Origin: Tetrahymena thermophila SB210
Lineage: Eukaryota > Ciliophora > Oligohymenophorea > Hymenostomatida > Tetrahymenidae
NCBI RefSeq assembly: GCF_000189635.1
Contig: NW_002476368.1
Span: 582,489-646,488, forward strand
DNA: 64,000 nt
Direction of reading: 5' to 3'
Below are positions 3,001 through 42,528 of this stretch, piece after piece. The translations under genes and the position numbers were made by a program. The notes under the pieces are model-generated. The model was not told the DNA's origin. It saw only the letters and a program-made list of their open reading frames with translations, and made no database searches. Each line of letters starts with the position of its first letter. The stretch's first letter is position 1.

Positions 3001-5762
3001 AATAGATTAGTGTTAATATCATAAATTTCTACTGAATTTTTTATTATTAGGAAAACTCCTAAAATATAACTCTAGTACACTTTTGAAATAAAATTTCCTT
3101 TATTTATAGATTACTAATCTAACTAGTAAATGCTACTATAATAATCAAGTTAAATTAGTTTAGTAGCTACTGTGCCTAAATTATCTCCAAGGACAGCATA
3201 TTTTTAGTCTTTTGTAAGAGTAAGTTTTGCATTAAGAATATTATTTGCAACAAGAAGATTTCTAAATGTATTAGCCTATCGAGACACATCAAATTCAAAT
3301 TCACCTATAGCCTATATAATTCCGAAGCTCTAACCCATCTTCATTCTATATATTGTGCTTTAAGCAAACTGATCATAATATTTTGTTGGCGGAAATAATT
3401 AATTCATTGCACTCACTTGATAGGCCAATAAAACCAGTTAAGTATCCTTGAATACCATATAGGATTCATATAGATATTAAGTTGATTTTTTTGATGTCAA
3501 TCCACCAATCACGTAGCCATTGTCCAACGGGTCAGCTACAAAGTTTAAATCTATAGCATTTGAAAGCTAAATACCCTAAACCTTTGAGAATTAAGATAAA
3601 TCGTCATGGAGAAAGTACATAGTTTAGCTATTCATAAATAAAATAATTTCAAACAAAGCATTTAACTAAGTTTGGTTAGGGGGACTATAATTTTTTATTC
3701 TTAATAGCTAGATTGTATCGTTGGGATAAGAAATTTATTTAGCTTAAGTTACTGTAAATTGTGTTAAATCTACTTTAGAATTAATTAAAATATTAGAATT
3801 TAATTGGATGATAAGAATGTTATTTTATTAGTAAGATATTAAATTAATAATCCCAGGTATTTAAAAATCTAATGGTTATAAACTATTAGTATTTTGTTAT
3901 ATTATAAATAATTGATTATTTATTAAAATTATTGCCAAATTATTTTAAACCGATACTTGCAGACCCTTATATTGGTTATTATTAAAGTTCCATTATTAAA
4001 CGATTGTACAAGAATAAGTGTCAAAAATAAATACATTTTATTAAGTCAATATTATAATTGTTTGCTCATCATTTGTGTTGAATTAAACTATTTAATTATT
4101 CTAGCTACTAGGTAATAAAGTTCCACATATCAATCTGGCGTTAAATATATTTGCAAAATCCCAAATGTAAAGATTTCCAAGATTATTACTTGCTATAAGG
4201 AGTTAGCTTTGCTCTAAAATTAATACACTCTAAATCTATCCATTTATCTAAGGTAATCCCAAGCGAAAATTTTGGACCAAATATTCTTATTTTTCTAAAG
4301 AAATAGAAAAATCAACTTAATCTAGTAATATTGACTAATAATCGATTCCTAGTATAAAAAGTCTAGACGCGAAATTTCCATCTTAAGTTTTAGGAAAATA
4401 TGCCAACTATTTTGCATCATTAATTCCAACATTATATGTTAAAATTTGGCTAATTGATGCTAAAGAGTTTGTAAATTAGATTTATAGCTAAAGTACAAAT
4501 TGTTTACTAGTCGCTTGCTCAATAGCTAAAATATAAATTTGATAATTATTTTATATTTAAAGAGATTATGCCATGTGTATTACTTGGTATTTAGTCAAGC
4601 TGAAGCTCTATGCAGTTTTAAAATTTTAGTCAAGGATAACGATTCCTGAATTAGTTAGAATAATTACATATTCCAGATTATTGTAATAAATTAAGTCAAA
4701 TTTTATAATTAAATCAGGTAAAATCTAAATTTTGCAGCTTTATTAGTCAATTATTGTAAGTTGTACAGAATTTTTATTTATTGCCAACATCAGATTTTAG
4801 TTTAAAAGTTTTTTTAATTAAATAAAATTACTTAGTGACGAGCATATAAATTGAGATTGTGTAAATTCGTTCAAACTGATTAAATATTAAGCACTTGAAT
4901 AGATTTCTGTTATTCTGATTTAGTTACTTAAGAATCTTACTATTAAGTTATCGAACCATTATACTGTTTCTTATGCGGTATATACAATTTTAAACTACTA
5001 ACTAGAAGTAATAGGCAAAAAAGTTGGGTAAATGATATGAGATTATATAGAGATAGTGAAAATTTCGCTATAGAGACCTATAGATATTATTACTAAATTA
5101 CTAACATTTACAAGTTCTATTTTATCAATATTATCTCTCAACTAGTTAAAAAAGCATAAGGGATATAATTTATTTGTAGATATGTCCCAGCTCCTTATAC
5201 TTTAATCTTTTTAAGACATGACTATTAACTAATCTTTAAAAACAGCATATTCTATGATATTATTATCAATTTAAAGACTTTGCTAAAATACCCCATCAAC
5301 CCTAGTCATTTGTAGAAGAATTATCTGATGAAAAATAAGAATATATTAGCTTTAATATGAATAGATTGCAGTGATTAAATCACCTTGGTTTAAGTTCGAT
5401 TAAGTCATAAAATTTAGTGAGCAATGCTAAAATTTAGTACAAATATTTTGCTATTAGTTATGATAGTAGTTATTATCACATATAGCTACACATATTTGAT
5501 TTTAGGGGTCTAAGTTACCATTTTGATCAAATTTAGACTAAAGAAAAAATCCATATTCGCAATTTTGATAAACACATAGATTACTTGCCTAGTTTAAAAT
5601 AAACCCATCCTAACACTATTTGCATTGTAGTTTGCTATTTCGCTAAATACATCCATCTGAATTCTGGCAACTCACTAAAATATGAAAAATGATGAAAATT
5701 ACAATCTTTTTTGTAAATTTTTAAATCAAAATCTTGCTATCTATATGACTATTAATACTCAT
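1..5762 (-). CDS. giant cysteine-rich surface membrane protein, 3' part beyond the window
   Basis: The start is ATG at 5762 (MSINSHIDSK). Exon 1 runs 5762-2423, a phase-1 intron spans 2187-2422, and exon 2 runs from 2186 past base 1 without an in-frame TGA, giving 1842 codons so far. A hydrophobic segment at about residues 21-35 looks like a signal or anchor. Next comes a cysteine-rich module with CxxC pairs and a CVAICDNNYYHN block at roughly residues 40-110. The rest is a long beta-rich region without an obvious repeat. It is a paralogue of the gene at 13359-22408: the N-terminal module aligns block for block, and the intron sits at the same place in the same phase. By that comparison about 1100 residues, including the membrane domain, lie to the left of the window. 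Ligand and function are unknown; a cell-surface or secretory-pathway location is inferred. Confidence 0.85.
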
Positions 5763-8097
5763 TAATAATGCTTTTTATACTTATTCTTTTAACAATAAGA
5801 AAAACTAAATGAATTATTTATTTATCTATCTTCTTAATCAATATTTATCTAATGAGTTATTTTGTTATAAATCAATTCACTCTACAATATGAACATAAAA
5901 CAAAACCATCAAATTTAAATTAACCAAATTATTATTTTTCTCTAAGTAATGAAGACCTAACCAATAATTTCTAATATAATCACATGGCATTACAGCTACT
6001 CTATTAATAAGGAATATTAACTCCACTTTTAAATTCACACACTCTGCTATTTAATATTTGAAATTGTATTAAAAATTGAAGTATTTTTAAAAAAACATCA
6101 TTTTTTGTAAAGAATAAAAAAATCCTTATAAACGACAAACGGACTGCAAAAGATAATTAAAGCTTAAATTTTATTTAAAACTAAATATCAAATATTCAAA
6201 CATATTTATTTTGAAAATATTGTTATAATGTGAAATATATTTTCAAAATATTTATTTTTATATTTATTCCTCACTACTTTATTTTAAAAAATTATGTAAT
6301 AATAAATACAGTATATTTTCATGTTTTTATGATCAGTATATAGTATATTTATACAACTTTAATTTTATTAATTTATTGATTGCTTTTCCTACTTAGTCTT
6401 TAAGCAATTAAAATAAATGGAAACTAAGTTTTTATATATTAAAAAAAATAAATATAAATTAATTTGTCATTTACATATTACTAAAAATAAATTTTCGCAT
6501 TATTAAATTATTATAAAATTAATAAAAAGTTTATTAATTAATAACGTCACCTTATTTTTTAAAAGATCATAAATAAATTGTGTTACAGAAATAATTATTT
6601 TGATAAATTTTACTCATATTCAATAATAATTCAGTATTCTAAATATTTTTAACATGAAAGTACTTTACCCAAAAGTATATCTTTCAAAATTAACAATTCT
6701 AAATGATCTAGATCTTAAAATGTATATAGTTGAGAGATATTTACAAACTATAAATTAATCTAAACAAAATATTACAAATTATACAGACTTCTCAATATTA
6801 TCTTTAATATATGATTAAATAAACAAAAAAGTATATAACTTTAATTATTTTTACTTCCCCAAATAATTTTAGATTATATTTACAAATAACAACACTTGCT
6901 AATAAAATAGGTTGTTTTTAAGTTTGTTTGAATAATATATTCATATAATTTATCTTTTTTACATTTTTTAATAAACATATGTAAAAATAAAAGAAAAACC
7001 TATTGGTATAAACAAATTATCTAATATTTAAGCTCTAAAATATTAAAAAATTGCAAACTATTTTTTTAAGATACTTAAAAAATAATTTTTTATTGAAATT
7101 TATTAATTTTACATAAAAAATTTTAATTCTACTCTATAAATATTAATTGAATAAAATTTTTAACATTTTTTTCGGTAAAATGATAAAATAAAATCTTTCT
7201 AACAACTATTTTATTAAAAATAATTTATTATTACTAAATATCTTTTATCTTAATCTATTTATTTTTTATCTTCATAATGCAAATTAAAAAAATATTTTGT
7301 AATTACTAAAATTTTTTTTGTATTCTTTGCTCTTTTTGTTTTAATATTGGCCTTATTTAAATAATTTAAATATATACCTCATTTAAAATTTAATAATTAT
7401 ATTTCCTCTATAATATAAAAATATGCCTGATCAGTGCTTTGAATGCTAATTTTAATTTTAAAAATTTAGGTAACAATCTGATTTTCTTGAATTTCATTAA
7501 AATTTGTATATTTTTTAGAAATAATTTGAAATTAAATCTTATATTTAAACCTGTACTAATTAATACGATCAGAAAATTTTTGGATTATTATTAATTTTCA
7601 TAATTAATTCTTATGTCTATTTTAAAATTTTTAAGATATAATACTTTCTGAAATATTAATAAAAAGTATAATGAAAAGAATTAATTATTAATTTAGTATC
7701 AAATATAAATCTAAATAAATCTTATTTAAAAATATTTAGTGAACTAAAGATATGGAATATTTATTGTGAACTTTTATAAAAAAACTAATTAAAATTATTA
7801 TTATAATTAAATTTTAAAATATTATTTTGAATACTTTTTATTTTATTGCTTAATATAAATATATGATATTATTTCATATACTTAATTGGGAAAAAAATAG
7901 ACAAATTAATCATTAATTTTATGATTAGGCTTCTCTAGTAAAAAGACACTTCATCTGATCAAATGTCATTATGTGATTTAATTTTTCTAATTAGGAGATA
8001 CTTCATTTATTTATATAATAGTTGAATCTGTATAAAAAAATAAAATTATGTTTTTGTAATTATAATTTTTAAATTTAAATTAAAAATAAGTAATAAC
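5763..8097. other. AT-rich spacer between divergent genes
   Basis: This 2.3-kb spacer separates two divergently transcribed genes, so it should hold both promoters. It is dominated by A/T runs with no sustained open frame under the ciliate code. Slightly less AT-rich patches lie at about 5870-6060, 6120-6160 and 7920-8020. No recognisable RNA gene was seen. Confidence 0.7.
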
Positions 8098-13358: not shown

Positions 13359-16300
13359 TCATCTTTTTTCAAAATTAAAGTTTTCAACTGAGTTATTTTC
13401 ACTAAATATTGATTTGCTCTCCTTGTGGTTCCTTTTATCTGAGAAAATAATAGTTGATGCCACATAAGGAATTTAACAGTTATTTGTTTTAGTATCTCCT
13501 TCTGTAGAATCAATAGTTTCTACTATCGGAGGTAATGAGTCTTTAAAAATTAAGGTCTTTGGCTAAAGTTTCTTGCACAATTGTGTATTTAATTACTTTA
13601 CTCCAAATTTATTCTAACTTATTAAACTATCAGGAGATTCATTATAAAAATCATTTTCTATTTCTAAAAAAATTAATAAATTAAAATAAATGTAATTTTT
13701 AAATTGTATGATTACCTTTATTGGTATTTTAAGCAATTATTATAGGTTTTACTTTTAAAAGCTTATTGTTTTATTTTTTATAAGATTTTTTCAAGATTAA
13801 ATGAATCTTTATTTTTTTTTTGAGTATTTTCCATCTTTAATAAGTAGAGAATTGTACTCTCTTTTTTTTAATGAATTTTAAGTAGAATGATTTAGAACAT
13901 ATTCTTTCAATGATCCATTTCAGAACTCTTCCAAAAATGTTAAACTCTGAATGTAACTTTTCATCAAATATCATATATAAGCAAGAGAAGACAAATGAGC
14001 AAAAGATTAAATATGTTAAAATACTTAATGCAAAAATATTGTATTACATATTTAATTTTGTCGTAATAATTAGGACTATTATAACTAAAATAGAGACTAT
14101 TTCTGTTTTTTATAGATCTTTATTCACAATAGGATTAAATTTCAAAGCCATTTTAATATAAATTAATAGGACAACTACTACTAGTAAACTGTAAAATGAA
14201 ACAAAATCAATTAGTGTAAATATAAATACAATAGCTATTCTGATATACATTCTGATGAACTCCCAATAGTAGAATTTTTTATTATATTCTGAATAAAAAT
14301 ATCCATACTAAAATTTTGTTTTGCAATAATCTAAAATATTTCTTTTTAATCTAAGTTAATACAAAATAATGAGAGGTATGCATATCCAAAAAGATAATAT
14401 GGATATAGAATATGGTATAGCAAATTACATGTATGTTGGGTTATTGCATTAAATAAGGTAATCAATTTTAGAATATTAATATTTTCCTAATTCAATACAA
14501 CCAACTGCGTTTGTGAAATAGGTTATTTAACTAGGTTAGAATAAAACTATCATTAGATTAAATAAAGTTCTTTAATAGGTGCGTTATACATTAATAAGCT
14601 TTAACTTGAATAGCAATTTTACTACAAGAGAGACTATTATCATGCAAAAAAAAGGAAAAATTCCAAGAAGAAAAGAAATCAAATTAGTTCTTGAAATTCT
14701 GTTTCTTACTAAACTATTTATCAGGCAATCTATAATGGATATGAAATAAAAAGTTGGCGACTGTAAAATAAAAAGTGAAGTATTTACTTAATTTGGAAAT
14801 AATTTACGTGTTTCTATTATGTAAGATGTTAGTTGTAAATAGTTTATTAAAATTTTTAAGTAAAAGCTTGATTAATCCCTAAAACAACTTTTTGATACTG
14901 GCAGCAAATCTAATTTTCTTAAGTAGAAGCATATTTAGTAATGAGTAAAACTATTTAAAAATATAATCATAGTCCAAAGACTATATAGAAGAATTATAGA
15001 AACAAGTATTGAAATCAGAATGAATGGAACGTATAGTTTATTGCATTTAACGCATTCATAATTGTTAAAATAAGAAATAGTGTAATGCTCTCCTCCCCAG
15101 ACTTCACCAAAAGAATCACATGAAACACATAATGGGCCTACCATTCCTTCTAAACAGCTTTACTTAGTTTAGTAATTATGTACACAATTTGGTGGCTTAT
15201 CTGAGCAATATAATATATCATCATTTTCAAAATCACTTCTCCAATAACCTTCCTTTAGCTAAATTATATCAGCTTAACAAAATTTAGCTTCATCTGGGCA
15301 AGGGATGCACTTTTAATCAACTAATTAATCTTATATTTCTTTTTTTTAGTCTTTTAAGGAATAATAATTGTTTGGGCATTCAAAGCATCTGTAAATGTTT
15401 TAATTTTATTATTGAACTATTTCTCCTTTTTTACAGCTTCTGTAGTTTATATCTATCAGTATTGGATTGAATTTATATGATAAAAAAGTATTATAAAACA
15501 TATTTAATTTTGATGAACCATTTGGAGATGAAACGATTTATATATTATCAAATGTATAGGATTTATTATTTTGATTATAATTTTAATATCCTAATTACGT
15601 GACTCCACTAATAAGAGTATTAATATTGTCTTAGTTGACTATCTTTAATTAGATTTCTTATAATTCACTAATAATAATTTAAGGATATTTTTAATTTATC
15701 AATTCATTTTAATTAAAACTGATAGATTCTCCAAACTCGTTTTCTAGGTTAATAGTAATCGAAATAAATGATCCACTATTTATATTATTAATTAAAAGTT
15801 TTCCTGAATATTTATCTTATAGTTGTTTATCTAGCTCAAATTATCTAAGAAATTAAAAATCTATTTTTTTGTTATTTTCTTTAATTTTAACTATACTAAA
15901 TTTAGAAATGATAGTAGCTATATCTTATCCATATATCTTAGCATTATTATTATTAATATTAGTTTAGAATTTTAATGAATGAGATAATTAAAAGAGATTA
16001 TTATTTTATATCGAATTATATATTCTTACACCTCCTCCAATCAAAGCTTGGTTCTTAAAAATTTATGATTGCTTATCAAAAAATACATCACCATAAACTT
16101 CTTATAAAAAGATTGCCCCTCCATTTGCATAAGCAACATTTGAATAAAATGTGCTATTTTATACACTTATACTCTTTGAATTTTAATTAACTGATAAAGC
16201 ACCTCCATTTTCATTTATATTTTAAAAAAACTATGATGATACTATATTTATAATTTAAGTCTATTACAAGAGGATATTGCATTCATTATCATAGAAATTT

Positions 16301-19300
16301 AAATTTTCTAAAAGTATAATAGCTGCATTTACATTTATAAGAGAAATACCATTATCTCTATTAATCTTATTTCCAGTAAATTATGAATTTGCAACACTAA
16401 ATTGAACTTATTAAAGTCTAATAAATATTTACTCAACTTAAAGGACACTTGAAGATTCAATAAATGTGATATCTTAATTATTAAGCATATTTACGTTAAT
16501 AAATTTTTAGACACTAACAGCTGAAATTGAAAAAATAACAGAGAAATTCTATAAACTTGGTAAAATAGGATTGATCATCATCATATTTTAAATCAATATG
16601 GTTTCTACTGTTAATTCAAAAACATCATTTATTTTTATTATAGATGATTATACTTAGCTCTTGATAATTGTTAGATTTTTTATTACTATTTATTAAGATT
16701 GATTAATTTTAATTAATGAATTAGTGTTACTGATGATTGTAATATTTTTTATAAAAAGCTATTCTATATATATATATTTACAATTAATAAAAGAGAAAAA
16801 AGGTTCCTCGGAACTTTTTATATTTAGTGTAATGTTCTGTATTTCTAATACCTTTATTACTAGAGTATATAAATTTTAAAATAAGATTTAGTTATTAAAT
16901 AAGCTTTAGTTTTAAATTTTTACATTCTATAAATAAACTTATTGTATGTTTTGATTAAAAGATATTGTTGAATTAGGGCTCTTAATAATAAAATTAAAAT
17001 TTTTCATATACAAATTGTTTTTAGAATAGTTTTCTAGTTCTTTATTTGGTAATATAAAGTCTTGCATTAAACCTAAAACGCTACTATCACTATAGGGGGA
17101 AATTATGATATCACTTTCCTAAGTTATATTTATATTTAGATCTGATAAATCTTGCTTTTTTAGATAATAATTGATTTATCTTTGTTTAAATTAAGTTACG
17201 CTTGGAACTATTCCTAGAAGCGAGGGCTTTTATGTATAATCAGATCTCATTAATTTAACTTATTAGGTCATTTACAAATAATTTAATCCAATAATATCTA
17301 ATCCACAAATTTAGTTTGTTTGATCCAATTAACTATAAAGATATATATTTAAATTATAGGATTAATCAATTATTTGATACTAAGAAGTTCCAACAACTCT
17401 TAAAATATTTTTGGTTTCATCTAATTTCACCATCATTATATTAAGAGAATCAACTATTACTTGATCTATCAAAGTTTATTTTTAACCTTTTTAATCAACT
17501 TGAATCAATTCAAATTTACCCTAGGATAATACAAGATAAAACTGATCTTAAAACACTTGCACTGTTTAAATTGAGTCATACATACCCTATCTTCTGATAG
17601 AACCTATATACTTAAGAGTTTTCCTATTGAAAATATTTAACTATGAAGTAGAGTAAAAGATAATTTGAGTGCTAGATAGAGTAATTGTATTTAATTAATT
17701 ATTTGGGAAAGACAAAATTGTGTATTAATAATTCGTGATTTATTTAATATCAAAGCATACTATTTTTTTTTCTTGCTAAAAGCTTAAATACATCCTTTAA
17801 TATAAGTCATCTATTAAAAAAACTGTTAATTTATTTCCTTGTACTGAGGCATATGAGCTGTAATCTAAAACAAGATACTAGTTTAAATTTGATTTTTATA
17901 TTTACAAAACTTAAGCAGAAGTTGTTGCAATCCATAAATAATTAACTGTTTCAGATATATAGCGTATTAATTTTTAGATTTAGTTTGAAAAAGGTTGTAT
18001 TGTTTAATAGTTTTGTTTTGCTGTATTTAGAAAGATTATAGTACCATCATTTAAACCAATAACTAACAAATTTAGAGATTATACTGAATAACTAGAGAGA
18101 ATAATTTAGTTATAAAGAAGAGGAATTTATTATATAATTTATTATTGAAAAAAATCATATTAAATAATTTATTATGTTAGTGAATAAAAAACTCCTGTGC
18201 AAAGAAAATAGCTAAACTATAAGTCATTTAAATTATAACTTTGATAACTAACAACAGAGTCTATAAGATTATCAATACTTAAATCAACTTATAAAATGTA
18301 ATAATTGGTTGTTAACATCAATAAAATTTAATCAGAAGACAGTAAACTTATATCTTTAATCAGTTAATTATCTTAAAGGTAATAAAAGAAAGATGATTTA
18401 AAGTTTGAATATTAATACAAAACATTTTATTAACCTAGCATTATAAAAATATCTTAATCAGGAGAACCATATAGTTATACTTAGCTTCTAATAAAAATAT
18501 TATTTTGTGTGATAGAATAAACTATTTATTTTTCAGTAAAACTTCCATAATTAACAGAAAACACACTAGTTTAATTAAAAATAAATAACTCATTTTTTTA
18601 TTTAATTAGCTACATAGCTAAAGGAATGGTACCATCATATAAAAATTCTTTAATTATCATAAGGTTTACTATTTCATACGCACCAGAATAGTCCAAAGAA
18701 TAAATATTACCATTTTAATCAAGATATGTGAGAATGCTAGCATAATTATCATAAAACATATCAATCACTAAACTAGGATTATTATAACTGTATGGATTAG
18801 TAAAAATTTGAATTTGTTCAAGATTTAAAAGACTATACACAAATATTTATCCATTCTTTATTGTATCACCAAATACAACTATATGATTAAAATCCTAAAT
18901 AAATAATATTTTTTAAATATTCCCTCCTAAAAAATTGTAGCTATCCAAATAGCTAAAATCTTATACACTAAATACATCTATATCTATTCATTAATAAAAT
19001 TTTATTTAATAAAACTTTTAATTTTTATTAAAAATTATAATAATAAAATATTTTATATATTTATTTTAATTAATTAAGATATGTAATATATTTATTTTAT
19101 AAAATGATTAAATAAATAAAAGAAAACTTACTATTAGAAGTGACCAGTAATGTGTAATTGCTACAGATTTGAATCTAATTAATAGCCTAACCAATCGGCA
19201 AGATTGCATTAATTAATGTCCCATATATACTAAATATTTCTACTTTATATGTGCTGAAAATATAAATATAGTTCAAGTTGCTATCGTATTATAATTAATA

Positions 19301-22300
19301 GTTATTTTTTATGTGTATAGGCTAAATTTGCTAAGTCACAGTAAATGTAAAATAATCAATAACAAATATTTAAGAGTTTTAGAATTAAAAAATAACTTTA
19401 GTAGATGTAGCAAAGAATATATTCTTTACAAATGAATTAGTTGGATACTGTAATGTTCTATTTACTGTAAGATTTAGGTTGAATTTTGTTATTTAATCTG
19501 CTGCTATAATAATAGATGGGTTATATTTATCTTCTGATATTGTAAATTAACTAAAAGGTTAAGTTGATAATACTTGATATGTGCTGTTTGTATCATAATT
19601 TTTAGTAAATAAAATATTTTGCTTTGTTGCTACAATTTGATTAAATTATTTAGTTGGTTAAAATTATTTAATAGGATTTGATGTATTATCTATTTAAATT
19701 GTTTCTATGTACTCTCTTGTATGGATGTTAAATACAAAAATGTTATTTGTTATAATGAAGTATTTAGACATTGTATAACTGTGTTATAAATTAATTATAG
19801 TTATTCCTTGTAGTTATTCTGTATGGCTTATATTAAAAGCTAATTTATATTACTAAATTTTAAAGTTACCTACATTAATTGTTCCTTAGTAGTTTTTTCC
19901 ATAGAGGATCTTCATATTTTGACTAACAGTAAATTTAATACCTGTTTTTCCCAATATATTTTACTATTATTCTAAAAGTATGCGATTTCGTTTAGGATCA
20001 TAACTATTTGTTGTTAAAGTAGACATAGATCCTTTATTAGAAAGTACCTTCAAATCGTAAATTGAATTATTATATGAATCATAGTATTTGGTTGGTGGTA
20101 TAAATTAAGATGCGTAAGTGTATTCAGAAATAAGAGTAATTTATTAAAAATTTCTCTACACTGAATATAGAGAAAATGGATAAGTAGAAATAGTTTTATT
20201 GTTCTTTCCAATCATGAAATATAGAGGATCATTAGGATCACTATTAATAAACTAAATATCTTGAATTGTTGAGAGCGGTATACCTTTGATTGTTTGATAA
20301 GGAACAAAATTTTATCCCATTAAAACAAATTATTGATCAGCTGTAAACAAACTAATTTCGAAGCTGGTAGGTATTTTTAATGTATTTTAGGATATGTCTC
20401 TTATCTTAAAAAATAAAAGTTTACTAGAGAGTAAGTATGATGATATTTTATTTAACTAATTTATTGCTAACTAGTACAAATCTATTGAATTGTTTCTCTA
20501 AACAATTAAGTATTTTGCTTGTTAGAAAGTAATGTTTTAAATATCATTTATTGGTCCATTAAAGTTGAGATATATTTAATTTTTATAATTTTAAATAAAA
20601 TAAGTAAAGTTTGAATCAATTAAAATAGCTAAGCTATTATTATTAACAGAATACTTCATTTTAAGATTTTACTACTACCATTAATATTTTATATTCAAGC
20701 TTATAACGTCGATAAGGAATATTGTTTTGTTAAATACAGCTATAATATCGCTAGGATTTGTAACATTAAATTGAATCAGCTCAATACAGGGATCTTAAGA
20801 AAGTTAAACACTGTATAAATACTAATCTTAAAACACATTTGATATATCCCAAGCAATAAGTTATCCATCTTTAGAGCATCCTACAAGCATCATAATATTT
20901 TCAAGAGGCAGCAAATTTATAATTCTTCTATAAGTTTTTTGCTTTAATTAAAAGTTGCTAACAGTATAATTAGTTTTTTCTTGTAAATTAGGAAGCATTA
21001 AATTATTCTATTAGATTAAAAATGATTAAACATCTTAGTTAGCTACAAATAGTCTTTTTGCATAAATTAAATTATTATTTTAGTCACGAGATTCATCTAA
21101 AGTAAATAAAAATTGTGGTTTGCTAATTAAAAGCTAAATAGGTTGACTATTAATTTAGAAATTTAAAGTAGAATCCTAGTTAAAAGTTATGTTATATGAA
21201 GTAAGAGTTGAATCATTTTTTAACAAGAAAATTGTGGTTAAATAATTTTAAGCTTAATAAATTTATTGCGTAATAAAATCGACTACTTAAAGCTGCTAGG
21301 AAGAAAAGTCAATTTGATTTAAAAATTGGAGCTAATTATTAAAAACTTGAATAGAAGAGGAAAATTAGATTATTAGGTAATCTTAATTATTAAATGTACA
21401 AATTTGAGATTTAAGAGGAATTAAAGTGGTTTATTTGACGGTACAAGACTATTTACTTATTAAAACTAAATTATTCGTTTAGTAAAGTAAAATTAAGATA
21501 TTTTAAGAAAAAATACCTCTTGAGAGAGAAATTATTTATTAAATTTGAATATTTTAACAATTAAAGTAAGCAGTTTATGATATTTAATAAGTATTTGTCT
21601 AATTAATTTAAATTACTCTCATAACAATACCATCATTTATGAATAAAAAACCTTGAATAAATTGTATATTATCAAGTTTTTTAAATGCTATTTCTATTTG
21701 TTATAAATTTAGAACAGGAGCTAGCTCCTTAATTTCCAATAAAGAACCAAAAATTATTTTATATTAATCAGAATCTATTATTTAATAACTTAAAAAGTTA
21801 TTTATCTGTACTAACTATACTTAGTAGAGTTAAATGTTATCATATGAAATTAATGATAAGTATTTCTTTGTACTACTAATAATATCTAGTGAATAAATAA
21901 TATAATCTTAAGAAAGGTAAAGCACATTGTTTCCAAAAAATTATATTTAAATTATATTTTATGGAAATTCTACAGTTTATTAATACTCTCCATTTTCTCT
22001 TTTTATTTGGATAAAGTAATTCGAGTGTTGAATAAGTATAAATTCTTCTTCCTAATAATTGTAAGCCATAATATTTTTCACTACATCTCCTCTATTTACA
22101 TTTGAGTTCATAGAAAAAGATAGACTGCATGGCTATAACTACTAGCAAGTATTCTAAATTTTATTGCTATAATAATTTGTATCACAAATAGCTACACATT
22201 CTTTCAAATTATTGTAGTCATGAACTTATAAAAAGAGACCATTTTAGCATTAAGTGTATACGCAATTAAAACTTTATGGATCTAACACATAACCTTCTAA

Positions 22301-22408
22301 GCATTAGTTACAATTTTGGGTTTGTAAATCACAACTATTACAGCCATCTGCACTGCATGTAGCTCTTATTATTACTAATTAAATGCTATAAAAAGCAATT
22401 GATATCAT
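13359..22408 (-). CDS. giant multidomain transmembrane protein (Cys-rich, beta-helix, 7-TM-like)
   Basis: A complete gene of 2949 residues. Exons are 22408-19132, 18983-13716 and 13663-13359, both introns are phase 1, and the sum is exactly 2950 codons with TGA at 13361-13359. A hydrophobic N-terminus (MISIAFYSIQ) precedes a cysteine-rich module at about residues 18-95. A very long beta-rich region follows. Around residues 2020-2080 GGA-type repeats (NGGALSV, NGGAIFLQ, GGGVRIYN) resemble polymorphic outer-membrane-protein or pectin-lyase-like beta-helix repeats. A second cysteine cluster (CIPCPDEAKFC, GPLCVSCDSFG) lies at about 2275-2400. About seven hydrophobic helices follow at 2410-2820, then a ~125-residue tail. 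This matches the large 'transmembrane protein, putative' families of Tetrahymena. It is a paralogue of the gene at 1-5762. A sensory or adhesion role is only a guess. Confidence 0.92.
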
Positions 22409-23671
22409 GATTAAAGCAAACATATTTAGTTATTTGGTCTTAGTAATAAGTTTTACGAAATATTAGAATTTTTACAAGTTAATTGATTATGCTTACTTAC
22501 TTTATTTATCAAAAAAATAATAATTTAATTTTCAAGCATTTAGATAAAGTAAGTAAGCCTTTTATAACATGTTAAAAATAATGATATTTATTAATACATA
22601 ATGAATTGGTAAGCATATTTACTAAACCACTAAAATTTTTAATAATAAATGACTCTCATATTTATTAAAGCAGTATTACATTAGTCTCATTTTATTAAAA
22701 ATATATATTTTATAGAATTGAATAATATATGATTACATTTAACATGATGGTGATAATGAATTTTGTATTAAAAAATAACTCAAAACAATATAAGTAAATA
22801 AAATATTTATTTTCAAAATTTGTTTTATATTTTCTTTTATATTTAAATAAACCTCTTAAGATTTAAGATAAAATATATTTTTCTGAAAATCCTCCAGTTT
22901 GATGCATGAAAAATCTAGATATATTATTTTGAAATTCAACTACAAATTATTCTGTTAAAAAAGTAATAAACAAATTTGATTTCTTATTAATTCTTCAAAA
23001 TTTTATCTACTAAAATATTTAGAAAGATGGGTTACCATTATTAAAAATATTAAAATAATAAATTATAAAAACAATCCAGTTATAATAAAAGTTAATTTGG
23101 TTTAGAAATAAATTTAAACAATTGAGACATTTACTAATAATTTAATATTAAAGAATAATTATAATAATTTTTTAAAAACTATCTTATATTAATTGCTTAA
23201 GTCCTTATCTAAATGACTTAAAAAACTTAATTAGAATTACAAATTAATTTTATTTTTTTTGAAATATGTTCATTAATAACTCTTTATTTCTTCATCTTTT
23301 TTTTCAATTTTAAATGATTATCATTTAAATAGTCAAAACTTTTAAACAAAAAATAAACATTATTTTGTAATTTATATTTATATAAAAAAGTTCAATTTAC
23401 TGAATTAATATTTAAATTTTACTATTTTTAGATAAAATTTTATTAATGTGATAATATAAAGTGGTTCATTGGTATATATAATGTTTAAAAAAGCTTTTTA
23501 CTAAAAATATTTTTGATAACTGAAATTTAAAAAAAAAAATATTTTAAAGTGAACTAAAGAAGATATACTAAATTACTAAAAATAAATACTACATCACTAA
23601 ATTACTTTAAAACAATTAAAATGGTAAGTATAATTGAAATATTTAGCTTTTTAAATACAAAAATTTGTTTA
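22409..23671. other. AT-rich spacer with a hairpin-forming inverted repeat
   Basis: This spacer lies upstream of the giant gene (start 22408) and downstream of the TPR gene (stop 23672), so it should contain the promoter of the former and the 3' end of the latter. Apart from the inverted repeat at 22491-22558, only long A/T runs are visible. Confidence 0.6.
22491..22558. repeat. inverted repeat, 15-bp perfect arms
   Basis: The left arm GCTTACTTACTTTAT (22491-22505) is perfectly complementary to the right arm ATAAAGTAAGTAAGC (22544-22558), with a 38-nt A/T-rich loop. It lies 83 bp upstream of the start codon of the giant membrane protein, so it may sit in the promoter or 5' leader. No similar element was seen upstream of the paralogue at 5762. 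Confidence 0.85.
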
Positions 23672-24745
23672 TCACCACCACTCAGTTAACTTTTTTTAGA
23701 ATTTTGATGGGTCAATTTCTTTAGCTTTTTGAAGATGGTATTCAGCTAACTCAATATTAGGTTATTCTCCTTTTTTTAAACATGAAGCATACTAAACATG
23801 AGCTTCAACATGGTTTGGATTATTTTTTAAGCAAACTCTGTAAAATTTTTTTGCTTCTTCACTATTTTTTGAAATATGTTACAAAATTTACCCTACTCTG
23901 AAATTCATGCTAGAAATCATATCCTATACTTCATCTTCTTACATAAACTAGTTTTCACACTTTTTAGTAGCTATATTTTCAGCTGCTTCTCTCATAATCT
24001 TGATTCCTTTTTATTGATCATAATGAAAAATTGCTTCACCATAAGCCCATTGACTTGCAAAATCGTTTGGGTTCATTTCTAAGCTTTTTTAAAAATGATC
24101 TTAAGCTATATCAAATTTTTGTTATTCTGCATATAACAAAGCTATAAATTAATGACAGTAAGAAGGTAGATAATTTAGCTCTATTGATTTCATGTATGTT
24201 TCTAGTGCTTTATCATTTTAATTTAGCATCTTATATAAACTTGCTAAACCAACTAATCCTTCTTTACCCATTTCAGTGTAGTCTATTTCAATTCCTTTTT
24301 CTAAGTATTTTACTCCTTCTTCTAGTTCCTCAAGTTAGACAAATAATGTTCCTAACTTACAATTTAATCTAGCTGAATTAGGGTATACTTTTAATGCTTC
24401 AATGTATATGTTTATAGCTTCTTCTACTCTTTCTATTTCTAAATACTATTAAGAGAGTACTACAATTTATTCTATTACATCTTGATTGCTTTTTAGCTCC
24501 TATAGAAGTTACACACTTATTTTATTTAATTCTTCAAAGCTAATTTATGCATTAGAAAATTTAAATGCTGTAACATAAGTTAATTACTTAGGAAAAGCTT
24601 TAGAATAATTATACTTAAATGTATGATAACTTTATCTTAAACTTTAAACTTAAAGCTGTATGCTAAATGGCTTAAAGTTTTATAAAATTTATTTATTTAA
24701 AACTTATTTTTAGTATTAACCTAATAGCTTTGTAAGCTTATGCAT
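23672..24745 (-). CDS. TPR-repeat protein, possibly mitochondrial
   Basis: A single-exon gene of 357 residues from ATG at 24745 to TGA at 23674-23672. From about residue 95 onward it is a chain of tetratricopeptide-type helical pairs, for example AINIYIEALKVYPNS, ALETYMKSIELNYLPSY, AQDHFQKSLEMNP and AKKFYRVCLKNNP, each with the spaced small, aromatic and proline positions of TPRs. TPRs bind other proteins, so a scaffold or assembly role is likely. The first ~80 residues contain many K, R, Q and S residues and no D or E until SFEELNK, which would suit a mitochondrial presequence; that is inference. It ends in KLTEWW. No named orthologue is recognised. Confidence 0.9.
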
Positions 24746-26180
24746 TTCTATATATTTATTGATTTAATTAATAAAAAATATCTTTATTTACTAATTATTT
24801 TTTTTTCTTAGAATGTTCTTTTTAACATTTGATTTAAAATTAAAGTAGAAATTATTTACTTCAAATAATAAAGAATTGTTATATTTTAATACACTAATAA
24901 ATATATGTGGATAAATACTTTTTAGAATAAGAAAAACCATATAATTAGTAATCAAATTTATTTAAGAAAGTGTGTTAATAAATTTTTAATTTCCTAAAAA
25001 ATTTTTAGTTTCTACTTAAGTATTTAAAAAAAATTAAAGCTTCAAAATATTATATCAAAACATTTACATCATAAGTATTTTTATCAAATAAAATTCTATA
25101 TAATGTAGATTAAAATATGTTTTTAATCAATTTTATTTTTATAAATTAATAAATAAATATACAACAAAATTAGCTAATTTCATAATCAAAACTATAGTTT
25201 TTGATTACTTTTAAATATTTTAAATTTTATAAAAACAATAGCTTTTAAATCATTTTTATTTATTAAAATTTAGTATATTTAACTTCAATCTAAGCCAATA
25301 AAATATGTAGAATTAATCAGGTTTTAAGAATCAAAACAATATTTTAATAATTATGCAAAGAGAATTTATTTGAGTGTATAAATTTTTCAGCTAAGTAACA
25401 ATAAAATACCAAAATAAAAATACTATTATTTTTTTATATGTTTAAATTTAGGGTTTTTTATTATAAAAAAGCTGGATTTTTTCTGATAAAATATTAAAGT
25501 ATGAAGAAATATTACAAATTTGGTTATAAAGTATATAATTAGTTATATCTCAATTATTGAATTCATAAGTAATAATTTGTGTTTTTAAATAATATTTAAT
25601 GTTAGCATATCAAAATTTATTTTTAGTGGCTGTCTTTTTACATTTACACTTTAAAAAAATAGAACCATTAAATATTTAATTCAAGATTAAGATAAATTGC
25701 TAGTAAAGTTACAATCTCCTTCTTCTTTAATATTTCTTTTTTTTTTCACTTATTTTAAGTATATATTGAAAAATAATACTTTTATTTATCAATTCAAACA
25801 AATTTATATCCCTTATTCCTTAACAATAAATGGTTAATTCTAAGTCTTAAATATGCTAGTTATATTCATTCATTTTGAAATGAGTCAATAGATTTGATTT
25901 ATGATATTGACCAGAGATACTTAGATGTTAATGCCAAAATTTATTACTTAACTAAAAAAGGGATTTTGCTTTGTTTAATATTCAATATATTAATCAATTT
26001 ACTTAAATAAATTCATTATTTTATATAAGAATAAACAAAATAACACATCACTAAATTGCTTTCAATACCTAAAAGTTGGTTGATTAACTTTCAATTTAGC
26101 TATTTAAAATATAAAAATAAAGTAGAATCAACATAACTTGTTTAAATTAGGAATAATTTAGTTAGTATCAGCAAAAAAGA
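24746..26180. other. AT-rich divergent promoter region
   Basis: A 1.4-kb spacer between the starts of the TPR gene (minus) and the RhoGEF gene (plus). A slightly richer patch at 25680-25980 has no usable open frame; an ATG at 25829 reaches TGA after 17 codons. No other element was recognised. Confidence 0.6.
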
Positions 26181-29100
26181 ATGAGCAGGATCATTAAAGA
26201 GCCCGAATTTTTTTAGTCAGGTATATTTTTAGAATTTTTTCAGCTTTTATCATCAAAGTTAATATAATGTATTATAGACAATAACTTTTCAAAAAATGGT
26301 TTTTTGTTTAATGCAAGGAAATAATAAGTTTGGTTTTCAAAGATAGGAAGAAATTTAAGTGTAAATACCTTTTTGTAATTAAAATAGATAGTAACAGAAG
26401 CTCAGTCATTACAAACTAAAGAGTATCTAATCTTAATGATTTATTAATACGTGCAAGAATCATATCTTTCAATTCCAACAATCGTTTAAGCAATATGAGT
26501 TAAATTTCTTAGTTAGATTTTGAGCAGTACTATTAAAATATAGACTTAAATTTGATAGTAAAGATTTAATCTTATGGCAAAATGATTTTACAGCGCAAGA
26601 AATATATCAAAATGCTATAAAAAGCCAAGTACAGATTATAGGTAATTAGAGAACTAGTCTGTACAGAAGAAAATTATGTCTAAAAACTACAACAATTGAG
26701 AGATGTTGTATATATACCTTTATTAAATCAAAGCAAGCCTATAGATCAGAGGAAAGATATTAAAGAGAACTAAATGCTTTAACAATAAACGTTTTAACTA
26801 CTTTAAGATGTTCAAATAAAGTAAGCTGATGTAGAAAATATTTTTGCAAATTTATAAGCGATAATAGAGCTAAATTCTAAGTTTGCAGAAGAAATGAAAC
26901 GCAGAAAAGAAAACCTACAATATAATGGAGTATTCACTGATGTGTGCGTTTAGTACGCTCCTTAATTAAAAATATATGTTACCTATTTAAACAATTATGA
27001 AAATGCAACAAAAATATTAAATAATTTGAAATTGAATAATCTCAATTTCAAGAAATTTTGTAATTATTTGGAGAATTATGATTTAAATGGCTATGATTTA
27101 TAGGATTTTCTGATTAAACCTGTTTAGCGTTTACCAAAATATCTATTATTACTAAAGGATTTGTTTAAAAACACTTTACCATCTCATTAGGATTATATCC
27201 ATGTGTAGACAGCAATAAATGAATTTAATGAGGTATGCTCTCACAACAATGAACAAATGGACAAATTTATTAGAGATAACAAGCTCATTGAGTTGCATCG
27301 TAAATTTTGTCTTCCTTTTTAATAATCAAACGAATAAAATAATTCCAATAACTCTTCTCTAAACTTGAGCTCAATAAAAAACACCCCTAAGAATTCTTAA
27401 CCAAATTTATTAGAAAGAAGTAAAAAAAGTATTTTTTTATAGCCTTTAAAGTAACCAATTTAAAATGCTAATGCAAATGGTGAGCTATAATTAATTTAAG
27501 CAGGAGTTAACAGAGAATTTCTATGGGAAGAAAACCTTTTTTTAGTTTAAGGTGATACTCAAAGGCAAGTTATTGTATATTTTTTGAATGACATTATTTT
27601 AGTTTCTGTAAAGGATAACTAGGAAAGAGAATACTTAATTAAATATTTGCCCTTGAATGAACAAAGCTCCTATAAGAATATGCCAGACTAAAAATATTTA
27701 AGTAATCTTTTTAGGATAATTGGAAAGAGCGATTCACTCACTTTTGTATGTGAAAACGATGAATTAAAAACATAGCTAATTAATAAGATTAATTATCAAA
27801 TAATTAGACCCTTGAGACTCAAGGCCAAACAAAAGATAAAGGAAAGAATTCCAGAATAAATTAGTCAAAGCAAACAAAATTCAACAAGTGAAGATCAAAA
27901 GAATTCAGTATCATAGATATCTTCTGAAGGATAAAAGGTAGAAGATGATTAATCAAAAGTAAATCAAGATTAAGATAGTAATAATAGAAGCTATTCTGAT
28001 AAAAGCCCAGTTAAATTAGATATTTGTGATGACTATTAATTTCCTATTGTAGTTACCGTTTTAGGTACAGAAGAAAGAAATTCTTCAAATTAAATGAAAG
28101 AAACTTACACAGTTTATATAGCCTAAATATAGATAGGAGAATCAATAAAATAAAAAATCTTTGTTAGGTATTCAGAAATGATTGAACTCAAGAAATTTAT
28201 AGAAAAATATATTAAGGAAATAACAGATTTAGAAAAGCTTCCAAAAGTTTTTATTTTCCATCATAAAACAAAAATTATTGAAAAAAGAAAAATCTTAATT
28301 GAAAATTTTCTTCAAAAAATATTATCAAGCTAATGTTTAAAAAACCATATTTTCTGTTCCTATATTTTATCTTAATTAGGGCTTCCTAATAACTTTTACT
28401 AGTTACCTTTAAATATTGGTGAATCCAACTTTGATTTTTTAAATGACATGGATAAAGAAGAAAATGCCACTAAATTAGTTATCTAAAGTAGATCATAATC
28501 AAAGTAAAATAAATAATATTTATTAATAAAATATTTTTATTTTATAACAATGCAAAGATTTATTTATTTTCATTTTCAAATAAATTATTTACCTATTTTC
28601 TATTTAACTTAAGTAATAATGAAGATGACTCATAGAATGAAGAGGATTCATTTAATTATGAGAACGGAAATGAAGAGGAAAATGACATGAACCGTAGTAA
28701 CAAAAATCAGTAAAGATAAATTTCAGTAGGAGCTAGCAGTTTTTATTAACCAAAGAATTATTTAGCTATGAAATAAAAGCTTTAAAGTAGTAGTGATTAG
28801 AACCAAATAGGTTAATTAAATGGGTAAGAAGATGGAGACTCAAATAACTTATCTAAGATGAATGAATCTTAAGATGTTTCTATGTCTTAAGTAAAGTAAT
28901 TTAATTCTTCAGGAATAAGACAAGCCCACTCAGTAAATTCAAGCAGTATCTATATCAATGATAGTACTAATAGTAGTATATAATATGCAGATAAGTAATA
29001 AAACACTTCTTTCAGTTAAGTTAATTCCAGCTAAATACTAAACAATTCTCTTTTTTATGAAGAGAAAGAAATAGAAATATTCACTCTTGATAAGAAAAGC

Positions 29101-30408
29101 TACAAAATAAACATCAACAGAAGCACAAAAGCTTTAGATGTATGCGAAATCCTGGCAAAAAAGTTATAATTAATCAGCTTTCTTGACTTTAGATTGTATA
29201 TCGAAGACGAAAAAAAGAAAATTCGTTTCTTGGATGATGATGAAATTATTTTTAAGCTTATGTTCAAAGATGAATTCAAAAAGAATGAGCTTGAAATGAA
29301 AATAGAGAAAGAATCTAGTAAGAAAAAGATTTTAGATTTTGGAGAAAGCATATTAAATAAGCTAGGATTAAAACATAATCATAAATATAAATTGAAATTT
29401 TGTAAATATATGTGGTTAGAAAAAGACTTAGAAGAATTTGATTACAAAAGCGATCCAGTTAGATTATAACTTATGGCTTCTCAGATATTGAATGATATAT
29501 CACAGATGAAATATGTGTTTAATGATAAAGACTACTTTCTTTACAGCTCTTTATATTTATTTATTAACCACCCAGAAGTTATATAATCAGCTAAAAAAGA
29601 TGGTGCATCAAAATAAGTAAAAAGTACTATTTACACTAAAATTAAAGAATTTTTACCAAATGAAATCATCAAGTAAAATAAAGAAAATGTCTGGGTAGAA
29701 AATCTCCTTATTTACATAGAAACCTTTTCAAATGAATTAGCAGAATCAATAAAGACAAATAAATAAATGATTAGAGAATCTATTAACTTATAAGATAATT
29801 AAAATCAAACACCCTCAGACGATATAAATGCAGCTATAAAAAGTTTTCAAGCTTCGAGCTAAAATGAAGAGTAAAATCAAGAAATTAGCCCAAGCAACAA
29901 ACTTGCTTAAAATAATTATTCCTAAAACTAAAATAGATAATCAACAATTTAAGGTATAGGGCATTTGCAATAAATAAGCACATCGATTATCACAAATAAA
30001 AAAAATATGGCATGTATGGTTTTATTAGATACCTTTAAAAAAACTCCATTATATGGTGCTACACTATTTTAGTGTGAAACATACAGCAAAACTATTAAAG
30101 AATCAAAAAAATAAATACCATAAAATGTTTTCATTTGTGTTAAATGTGACTCTATTCAAATACTGGATTCTTAAAAGTAAAAGAAGAAATAATTTAGTTT
30201 TCAAGATATTAAAGGAACTAGAGTTTTTCCTTCATCAATTACATTCATTCTCCGTAATGAATCTATTGCTTACAGATTCGATACTAATTAAAGTTTTGAA
30301 ATTAGCTAATTAATAACAGCTTATCAAAGTATATTAGTTGATATTGAAAAAAATGCTATGACTTTAGATGAAGAATCAAACAAATTTAAAATTTAAAATT
30401 AAATCTGA
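26181..30408 (+). CDS. RhoGEF with DH, PH, PX and FERM modules
   Basis: Predicted activator of Rho/Rac GTPases, 1316 residues. Proposed exons are 26181-26220, 26388-28503 and 28614-30408; they sum to 1317 codons with TGA at 30406-30408. The DH domain starts near residue 95 (VIRELVCTEENYVQKLQ) and includes DFLIKPVQRLPKYLLLLKDL, the conserved last DH helices. A PH-like segment spans about 386-503. A PX-like segment spans about 564-683 (VRYSEMIELKKF, then KLPKVFIFHHKTK, then a helical end), suggesting phosphoinositide binding. A Q/S/N-rich acidic linker follows. The C-terminus is FERM-like: ubiquitin-like F1 at about 879-975, helical F2 at 1004-1100 and PTB-like F3 at 1184-1295 (PLYGATLF, SFQDIKGTRVF, YRFDTNQSFEI). 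The first exon and intron are the least certain part; the frame requires a shift of 2 between the ATG and the DH frame, which the 167-nt intron supplies. It probably acts at membranes in actin or phagocytosis control. Confidence 0.88.
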
Positions 30409-41497: not shown

Positions 41498-41570
41498 TGG
41501 AGAACCTGGGCATTGATCCCAGTGCCTCTCGTATGCTAAACGAGCGCTCTACCATTTGAGCTAGATCCCC
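41498..41570 (-). tRNA. tRNA-Ala (AGC), copy 1
   Basis: 73-nt cloverleaf on the minus strand. The anticodon loop TTAGCAT gives AGC, and the acceptor stem contains the G3:U70 pair, the alanine identity element. The T loop starts with A (ATCAATG), as in other eukaryotic tRNA-Ala. It is followed by a T run on the minus strand. All five copies in the cluster are identical. Confidence 0.98.
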
Positions 41571-41853
41571 TTCACAATTTTTTCTCTAATTTACAAGTTT
41601 ATTATCATTAAAAGTATAAAATTATAAGTTTTAAAAACTTGGAATCGACTAACAAATAAAATGTATCTATCTACGCTATTAAATAAAAATGTTCTTAAAT
41701 TTATAATAATATTAAATTTAATTCTTATGTAGCCTCTACTTATTGATAAAAAAAATTATCTTTTTATGTGTTTTTACATTAAAATTATTTTATGTAAATG
41801 CTTATCTATAAATTTTATAAAAATTTAAATATTTTGAAAATAAATAAAAAAAT

Positions 41854-41926
41854 TGGAGAACCTGGGCATTGATCCCAGTGCCTCTCGTATGCTAAACGAG
41901 CGCTCTACCATTTGAGCTAGATCCCC
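41854..41926 (-). tRNA. tRNA-Ala (AGC), copy 2
   Basis: Identical in sequence to copy 1 and on the same strand, 283 bp from it. It is followed on the minus strand by a seven-T terminator. The flanks are unrelated to those of the other copies beyond A/T richness. Confidence 0.98.
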
Positions 41927-42022
41927 TTACAATAATTTAATTAGTAGAAAATTTTTTCTTTGATTTTTTTCATATTAAAAATAATAAAACTTAAAAAAAA
42001 TTAATTTTTAAATCAATATGAA

Positions 42023-42095
42023 GGGGATCTAGCTCAAATGGTAGAGCGCTCGTTTAGCATACGAGAGGCACTGGGATCAATGCCCAGGTTCTCCA
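42023..42095 (+). tRNA. tRNA-Ala (AGC), copy 3
   Basis: Identical to copies 1 and 2 but on the plus strand, 96 bp from copy 2 and head to head with it, so the pair forms a long inverted repeat. The T-rich terminator begins just after the gene. Confidence 0.98.
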
Positions 42096-42259
42096 AAATT
42101 TTTTTATTTAAATAAAATGCTTTTAAAATAAATAATTAATATGAGGCAAATTAGGATAATTATTATTTTGCTTGATCTAAATAAAGTAGAAAAATAAATA
42201 ATTTTATTTATTAGCAAAAATAAAAAGTTATGAAAAAAATACTCTCAATATTTTGTGAA

Positions 42260-42332
42260 GGGGATCTAGCTCAAATGGTAGAGCGCTCGTTTAGCATACG
42301 AGAGGCACTGGGATCAATGCCCAGGTTCTCCA
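42260..42332 (+). tRNA. tRNA-Ala (AGC), copy 4
   Basis: Identical plus-strand copy, 164 bp after copy 3, with a T-run terminator. Confidence 0.98.
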
Positions 42333-42455
42333 ATTTTTTTATAAAATAAATGAAAAGATTGAAAAGATATTCAAATTTCTTTAGTTTATATTCAATTATT
42401 TATTTATTTAGAAAAAAAACAAAGTAAAATAAATTTTAAATAAAAATAGTATGAA

Positions 42456-42528
42456 GGGGATCTAGCTCAAATGGTAGAGCGCTCGTTTAGCATACGAGAG
42501 GCACTGGGATCAATGCCCAGGTTCTCCA
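42456..42528 (+). tRNA. tRNA-Ala (AGC), copy 5
   Basis: Identical plus-strand copy, 123 bp after copy 4, with a T-run terminator. It is the last gene of the cluster. Confidence 0.98.

Follow-up and report, generated by a model that had tools for sequence, protein, structure and literature searches.

In animals, FARP1 and FARP2 carry a FERM module first, together with two PH domains and no PX domain, and SNX17, SNX27 and SNX31 follow a PX domain with FERM in a chain devoid of DH-PH. The FGD family has a FYVE domain in place of PX and lacks FERM; intersectin, P-Rex and Tiam1 are exchange factors for Rac/Cdc42, the first two having other flanking domains; and talin and the MyTH4-FERM myosins contain neither an exchange factor nor PX. 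Here we describe a gene of Tetrahymena thermophila SB210 located on the plus strand at 26181–30408 of a 64,000-nucleotide stretch of genomic DNA (contig NW_002476368.1, positions 582,489 to 646,488; the whole stretch is hereafter the window), for which the predicted 1316-residue product follows the order DH, probable PH, PX, FERM. An earlier note on this DNA knew of no standard family with such an order; taken as a claim that the protein has no standard relative, this was too broad, because SNX17/27/31 share the PX-FERM pairing and FARP shares the joining of FERM to DH-PH. Taken as a whole, the product is in our judgement probably a Dbl-type Rac exchange factor that would use its PX domain on membranes bearing phosphatidylinositol 3-phosphate (PI3P) and its FERM module on a second partner.

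The chain was searched against Pfam as two pieces, exon 2 and exon 3, and expectation (E) values are given throughout. The DH (RhoGEF) domain (residues 99–301; 26642–27250, on the plus strand like all features of this gene) lies above the Pfam cut-off (PF00621, 1.9e-40), with the match spanning the full profile from position 1 to 180. It contains Glu107, Lys270 and Asn301, which we take to be the catalytic positions of a Dbl-type DH (Glu107 in CR1; Lys270 and Asn301 in CR3) and which are kept in a paralogue on another contig, C278. Also above the cut-off is the PX block (residues 565–680; 28040–28387; PF00787, 1.4e-7), in which Arg607, Tyr608 and Arg647, presumably the contact positions of the PI3P pocket, align with the Arg-Tyr and Arg of CISK and nischarin and are again kept in the paralogue. 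A further 190 residues separate the PX block from the Ras-association-like F1 lobe of the FERM module (residues 871–951; 29068–29310; PF21989 RA_2, 2.7e-7), the third domain above the cut-off. Matches to the F2 lobe (residues 998–1091; 29449–29730; PF00373 FERM_M, 0.0011) and to the PTB/PH-like F3 lobe (residues 1212–1293; 30091–30336; PF02174 IRS/PTB, 0.0028) are sub-threshold, yet they are placed in FERM order 3' of F1 in both paralogues, and the F2 and F3 lobes are thus likely to be present. The PH-like segment (residues 378–489; 27479–27814) is conserved in the paralogue and matches Pfam PH below the cut-off (0.13); a PH domain after DH is probable, mainly by position. The earlier proposal of DH-PH-PX-FERM in one chain is therefore upheld for DH, PX and F1, for their order and by a same-order paralogue, with PH resting on its position and weak scores and with F2 and F3 below the cut-off.

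That the C-terminal half might instead combine a lone Ras-association-like domain with unrelated sequence, and so not be a FERM module, would agree with F1 of the window protein being the sole FERM-region match above the Pfam cut-off, F2 and F3 each being sub-threshold when taken singly. We nevertheless regard it as very unlikely, given that families of F1, F2 and F3 occur in order in both paralogues and given two further results. The first came from two-sequence profiles, made from the window protein and its paralogue and searched against the PDB. At E up to 1, the FERM profile matched 21 chains: 14 of talin (one carrying a clone name only, which we take to be talin), four of myosin VII and three of a ribosomal protein. 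Talin was best at 0.0013 for the whole chain; its best single stretch (0.025) lies in F3, and a collinear one in F2 does not reach significance by itself. A myosin VIIb chain matched over the F1 region at 0.031. The second came from 10 control sequences (two reversed and eight shuffled FERM halves), none of which gave an F1, RA, FERM_M or PTB-type Pfam match, their best match of any kind being 0.084. An origin of the FERM matches by chance from Asn/Gln-rich composition is accordingly unlikely. The lobes would thus be nearest those of talin and the MyTH4-FERM myosins, and for Myo7 the paralogue adds a DdMyo7_FERM match (5e-4, below the cut-off); unlike in MyTH4 myosins, MyTH4 does not appear in the Pfam list of the window protein. 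A CCP_MauG match (0.082) in the same list was taken as chance, and NCBIfam returned nothing but low-score, implausible matches.

The paralogue emerged from searches of the genome (101 Mb, i.e., megabases, in 445 contigs), in which RhoGEF was found in two places, the window gene and a locus on contig C278. There, both halves of the window protein place DH, PH, PX, F1, F2 and F3 collinearly, across six segments lying within one frame that runs from an ATG through 1170 codons without a TGA. Inside its PX domain is an in-phase 132-nucleotide GT-AG stretch, probably an intron, as its removal restores the alignment to the PX domain of the window protein. Per-domain identity ranges from 31 to 44% (DH, 64/173; PH-like segment, 38/102, or 37%; PX, 57/131; F1, 26/83; F2, 40/120; F3, 42/115). 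The paralogue DH is above the Pfam cut-off (3.1e-36), and its PX is just below in the split piece (5.8e-4) and above in the unspliced frame (6.4e-5). Other Pfam matches in the paralogue, including Perilipin (0.0079), an SLA1-like PH (0.0039) over F3 and some lesser ones, were taken as chance. Because the paralogue keeps the domain order despite this divergence, an accident of gene modelling or assembly is very unlikely to have produced the architecture.

As for the window gene itself, joining exons 26181–26220, 26388–28503 and 28614–30405 and translating with table 6 (in the host code, TAA and TAG specify glutamine) yields a single 1316-residue chain without an internal stop, closed by the TGA at 30406–30408, as the earlier note had listed it. 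Among six GT-AG combinations tried near both introns, these joins were the sole fully open choice. Exon 2 (26388–28503) is an open frame that holds DH, the PH-like segment and PX, and exon 3 (28614–30405) is an open frame that comprises a Ser/Asn/Gln-rich linker and then FERM. Between them, 3' of PX, lies intron 2 (28504–28613; GT-AG, 110 nucleotides), for which the G+C content of 10.9% is matched or undercut by none of 3688 exon windows of equal length; its three frames all have negative codon scores, and the adjoining exon ends score positively in their reading frame, with a codon table trained on these very exons and hence biased in their favour. Intron 1 (26221–26387; GT-AG, 167 nucleotides) is tentative and only mildly AT-richer (20.4% versus 25.7% G+C), with every frame falling slightly under zero in codon score. 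Exon 1 (26181–26220), equally tentative, would supply residues 1–13 and the first base of codon 14, the frame being open with the 26220/26388 join. As the exon 2 frame also stays open upstream as far as 26084, the start of the gene is uncertain, and intron 1 with its 13-residue exon is plausible but less secure than intron 2; no domain call depends on either. The position of intron 2 between PX and the linker, with frames that differ when unspliced, could also arise if two adjacent genes (one for DH-PH-PX and one for FERM) had been mis-joined across it, and the earlier note had named a two-gene split near 28504–28613 as one of two possible refutations. This now appears extremely improbable: the composition of intron 2 is intron-like, and the paralogue, on a different contig, spreads the six segments over its single open frame, by which a merger of two genes is strongly opposed.

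Several observations weigh against the architecture or the function proposed for it. PH is missing from the exon 2 Pfam list at E up to 10; when the PH-like segments are searched alone, PH is the sole Pfam family, at 0.13 in the window protein and 0.074 in the paralogue (both below the cut-off). The PX domain has no clear PPxxP loop (by eye), so its lipid binding could be weak. All three FERM lobes of the paralogue are below the cut-off (F1: RA_2, 4.7e-5, and Ras_bdg_2, 7.6e-4; F2: FERM_M, 0.0029, and DdMyo7_FERM as above; F3: IRS, 0.0019). Searched alone against the PDB, F2 reached talin at 0.32 and was outscored by an unrelated chain (0.29), and of two single-sequence searches with FERM halves, one placed talin ninth of 12 (1.5) and the other returned one unrelated chain. 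Genome-wide, PX gave 32 matches and RA_2 four places including the window gene, both searches missing the paralogue; among the places they list, the window gene alone has both domains nearby. The FERM_M search found nothing, missing even the window gene and the paralogue, and is therefore no sign of absence, and the CRIB effector family had no genome match in a search made without a positive control. Outside this set, the profile of the PH-like segment matched the PDB weakly, with the Exo84 PH at 0.71 outscored by an unrelated ribosomal protein (0.11).

The front-half profile points to exchange factors: among the best 60 of its 63 PDB matches are intersectin (1.3e-17), P-Rex (8.9e-17), FGD6 (6.4e-15), FARP2 (1.4e-13), Tiam1 and others, intersectin and P-Rex being the best matches of DH, and its PX region finds nischarin and CISK. 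FARP1/2 chains occur among the matches of DH under the name FERM, RhoGEF and pleckstrin domain-containing, and FARP resembles the window protein in uniting a DH exchange module (its PH being probable in the window protein) with FERM in one chain; the window protein differs from it in having FERM last and PX between. Membership in the FARP family was rejected on this order, with the FERM-type matches C-terminal and PX present. The FGD family offers a likeness of another kind, in that a Dbl exchange factor is combined with a PI3P reader.

Compared with the sorting nexins, the protein might be primarily a PX-FERM endosomal cargo adaptor of their type, in which the added exchange factor would let cargo capture trigger local Rac and actin. 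In SNX17/27/31, too, a FERM-like module comes after PX, with F1-F2-F3 in the same order as here (F2 and F3 being sub-threshold in the window protein), and one abstract places SNX27 in the PX-FERM family. A PX-only profile had 14 PDB matches, led by nischarin (2.6e-4) and CISK (2.8e-4) and including SNX16 and two of SNX27 (0.0031 and 0.0052); another four, near 0.1, are chance chains. Furthermore, the SNX17-27-31 F1 family (PF21273) matches the window protein weakly (0.15). The Pfam list of the paralogue lacks that family, however, and sorting nexins account for none of the 21 chains matched by the FERM profile, in which talin and myosin VII are favoured instead; FERM lobes of the SNX17 type were rejected on these grounds. 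The 190-residue linker between PX and F1 likewise departs from the layout of a cargo adaptor. We thus consider a primary role as cargo adaptor unlikely.

Returning to the Rac exchange factor that we favour, the DH domain would exchange guanosine diphosphate for guanosine triphosphate on Rac-like guanosine triphosphatases (GTPases), while PX would tether the protein to a PI3P-bearing membrane, likeliest an endosome or food vacuole. From the end of its long flexible linker, the C-terminal FERM module would then bind a second partner at the same membrane: the tail of a membrane protein, if contact is through F3, or an acidic lipid or small GTPase, if it is through F1/F2. Both contacts would be needed for Rac activation, and Rac output would therefore be restricted to selected membranes. 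Exchange activity, lipid choice, location and partner are predictions here, as is the PH domain, and so would be any autoinhibition.

One variant of partner choice bears on the F1 lobe, which may bind active Rac or another Ras-like GTPase and so make a single chain both exchange factor and effector, reinforcing its own output. F1 does fall in Ras-association families, in the window protein with RA (0.004, below the cut-off) in addition to the above-threshold RA_2, and in the paralogue with the sub-threshold RA_2 and Ras_bdg_2 matches given earlier. FERM F1 lobes nonetheless have a ubiquitin-like fold and are mostly non-binders of GTPases, and we rate self-reinforcement of this type as quite unlikely.

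The genome also encodes candidate partners of an exchange factor. In a search with human RAC1, which yielded 36 matches, loci on contigs C130 (78% identity, residues 57–96) and C199 (65%, residues 56–95) stand out, the pieces at all remaining loci being at or below 44%. The former (L083) reads as a Rac with a CAAX-like CVLI end; when its pieces are assembled by eye, the best value against solved Rac1 is 1.1e-67. The latter (L085) reads as a second Rac-like sequence with a CAAX-like CTLI end. Both genes are intron-split, and that on C199 is more diverged around switch I. An exchange factor with no substrate was thus rejected as a description of the genome, two Rac-like GTPases having been found. 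RhoGAP gave a single exon match (L012, in the C13:974790 region), and another frame just upstream of that exon contains a GIFRKA stretch that resembles, by eye, an arginine-finger exon. RhoGDI is represented by one locus, in two pieces. The DOCK DHR-2 domain had no genome match, in a search without a positive control. As intron-split genes can be missed, all of these genome counts are lower bounds.

The circuit would accordingly be small, comprising, as lower bounds, one locus each for RhoGAP and RhoGDI and two genes each for Rac-like GTPases and DH exchange factors. DH-PH-PX-FERM is the only DH-type design found in the genome, in two copies and beside two Rac-like genes. We tentatively extend this to a broader proposition, for which we hold modest expectations, that the architecture is the ciliates' own and only one of DH type, with two genes for two Rac genes, tying all DH-driven Rac activation to PI3P membranes and a FERM partner. 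Both exchange factors share the two predicted membrane-reading modules, and the organism may thus offer a simple system for how one design positions Rac activity. The architecture would also unite two animal themes known apart, namely the PX-FERM pairing of cargo adaptors and the pairing of FERM with DH-PH in exchange factors.

No description of the four-part order was found among the papers listed in the literature searches, with earlier mention in Dbl surveys, the Tetrahymena genome paper or automated domain databases being possible; nor was one of ciliate Rho-family exchange factors seen there. A survey of PX proteins lists RhoGEF and FERM_M among PX-associated domains, puts the co-occurrence of RhoGEF with PX on record as rare, and notes Tetrahymena and Paramecium for their numerous PX proteins (PMC2837644). 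Part of the DH-PH-PX-FERM architecture may thus already be counted in that survey. Some Tetrahymena myosins carry FERM or MyTH4, according to another study (PMC2375034). Passages of three other papers contain nothing bearing on the architecture (PMC6881465, PMC2386819, PMC4736243).

Directly 5' of DH, the window gene contains an IQ-like motif (residues 70–86; 26555–26605; Pfam IQ, 0.18, below the cut-off), which is degenerate in the paralogue (by eye) and for which a link to calmodulin is possible. Upstream and in the opposite orientation is a gene for a TPR-repeat protein (23675–25054, minus strand). Two long minus-strand open frames, 13654–18987 (1778 codons) and 18869–22531 (1221 codons), have no Pfam match at 0.001; they could together represent a single large gene, as adjacent or overlapping portions of it. 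A third, 2001–5837 (minus strand; 1279 codons), has one weak match to a WDR3-type beta-propeller (0.00031, far below its cut-off). Elsewhere in the window, five transfer RNA genes for alanine (anticodon AGC) with equal Rfam scores are clustered at 41498–42528, two on the minus strand and three on the plus strand.

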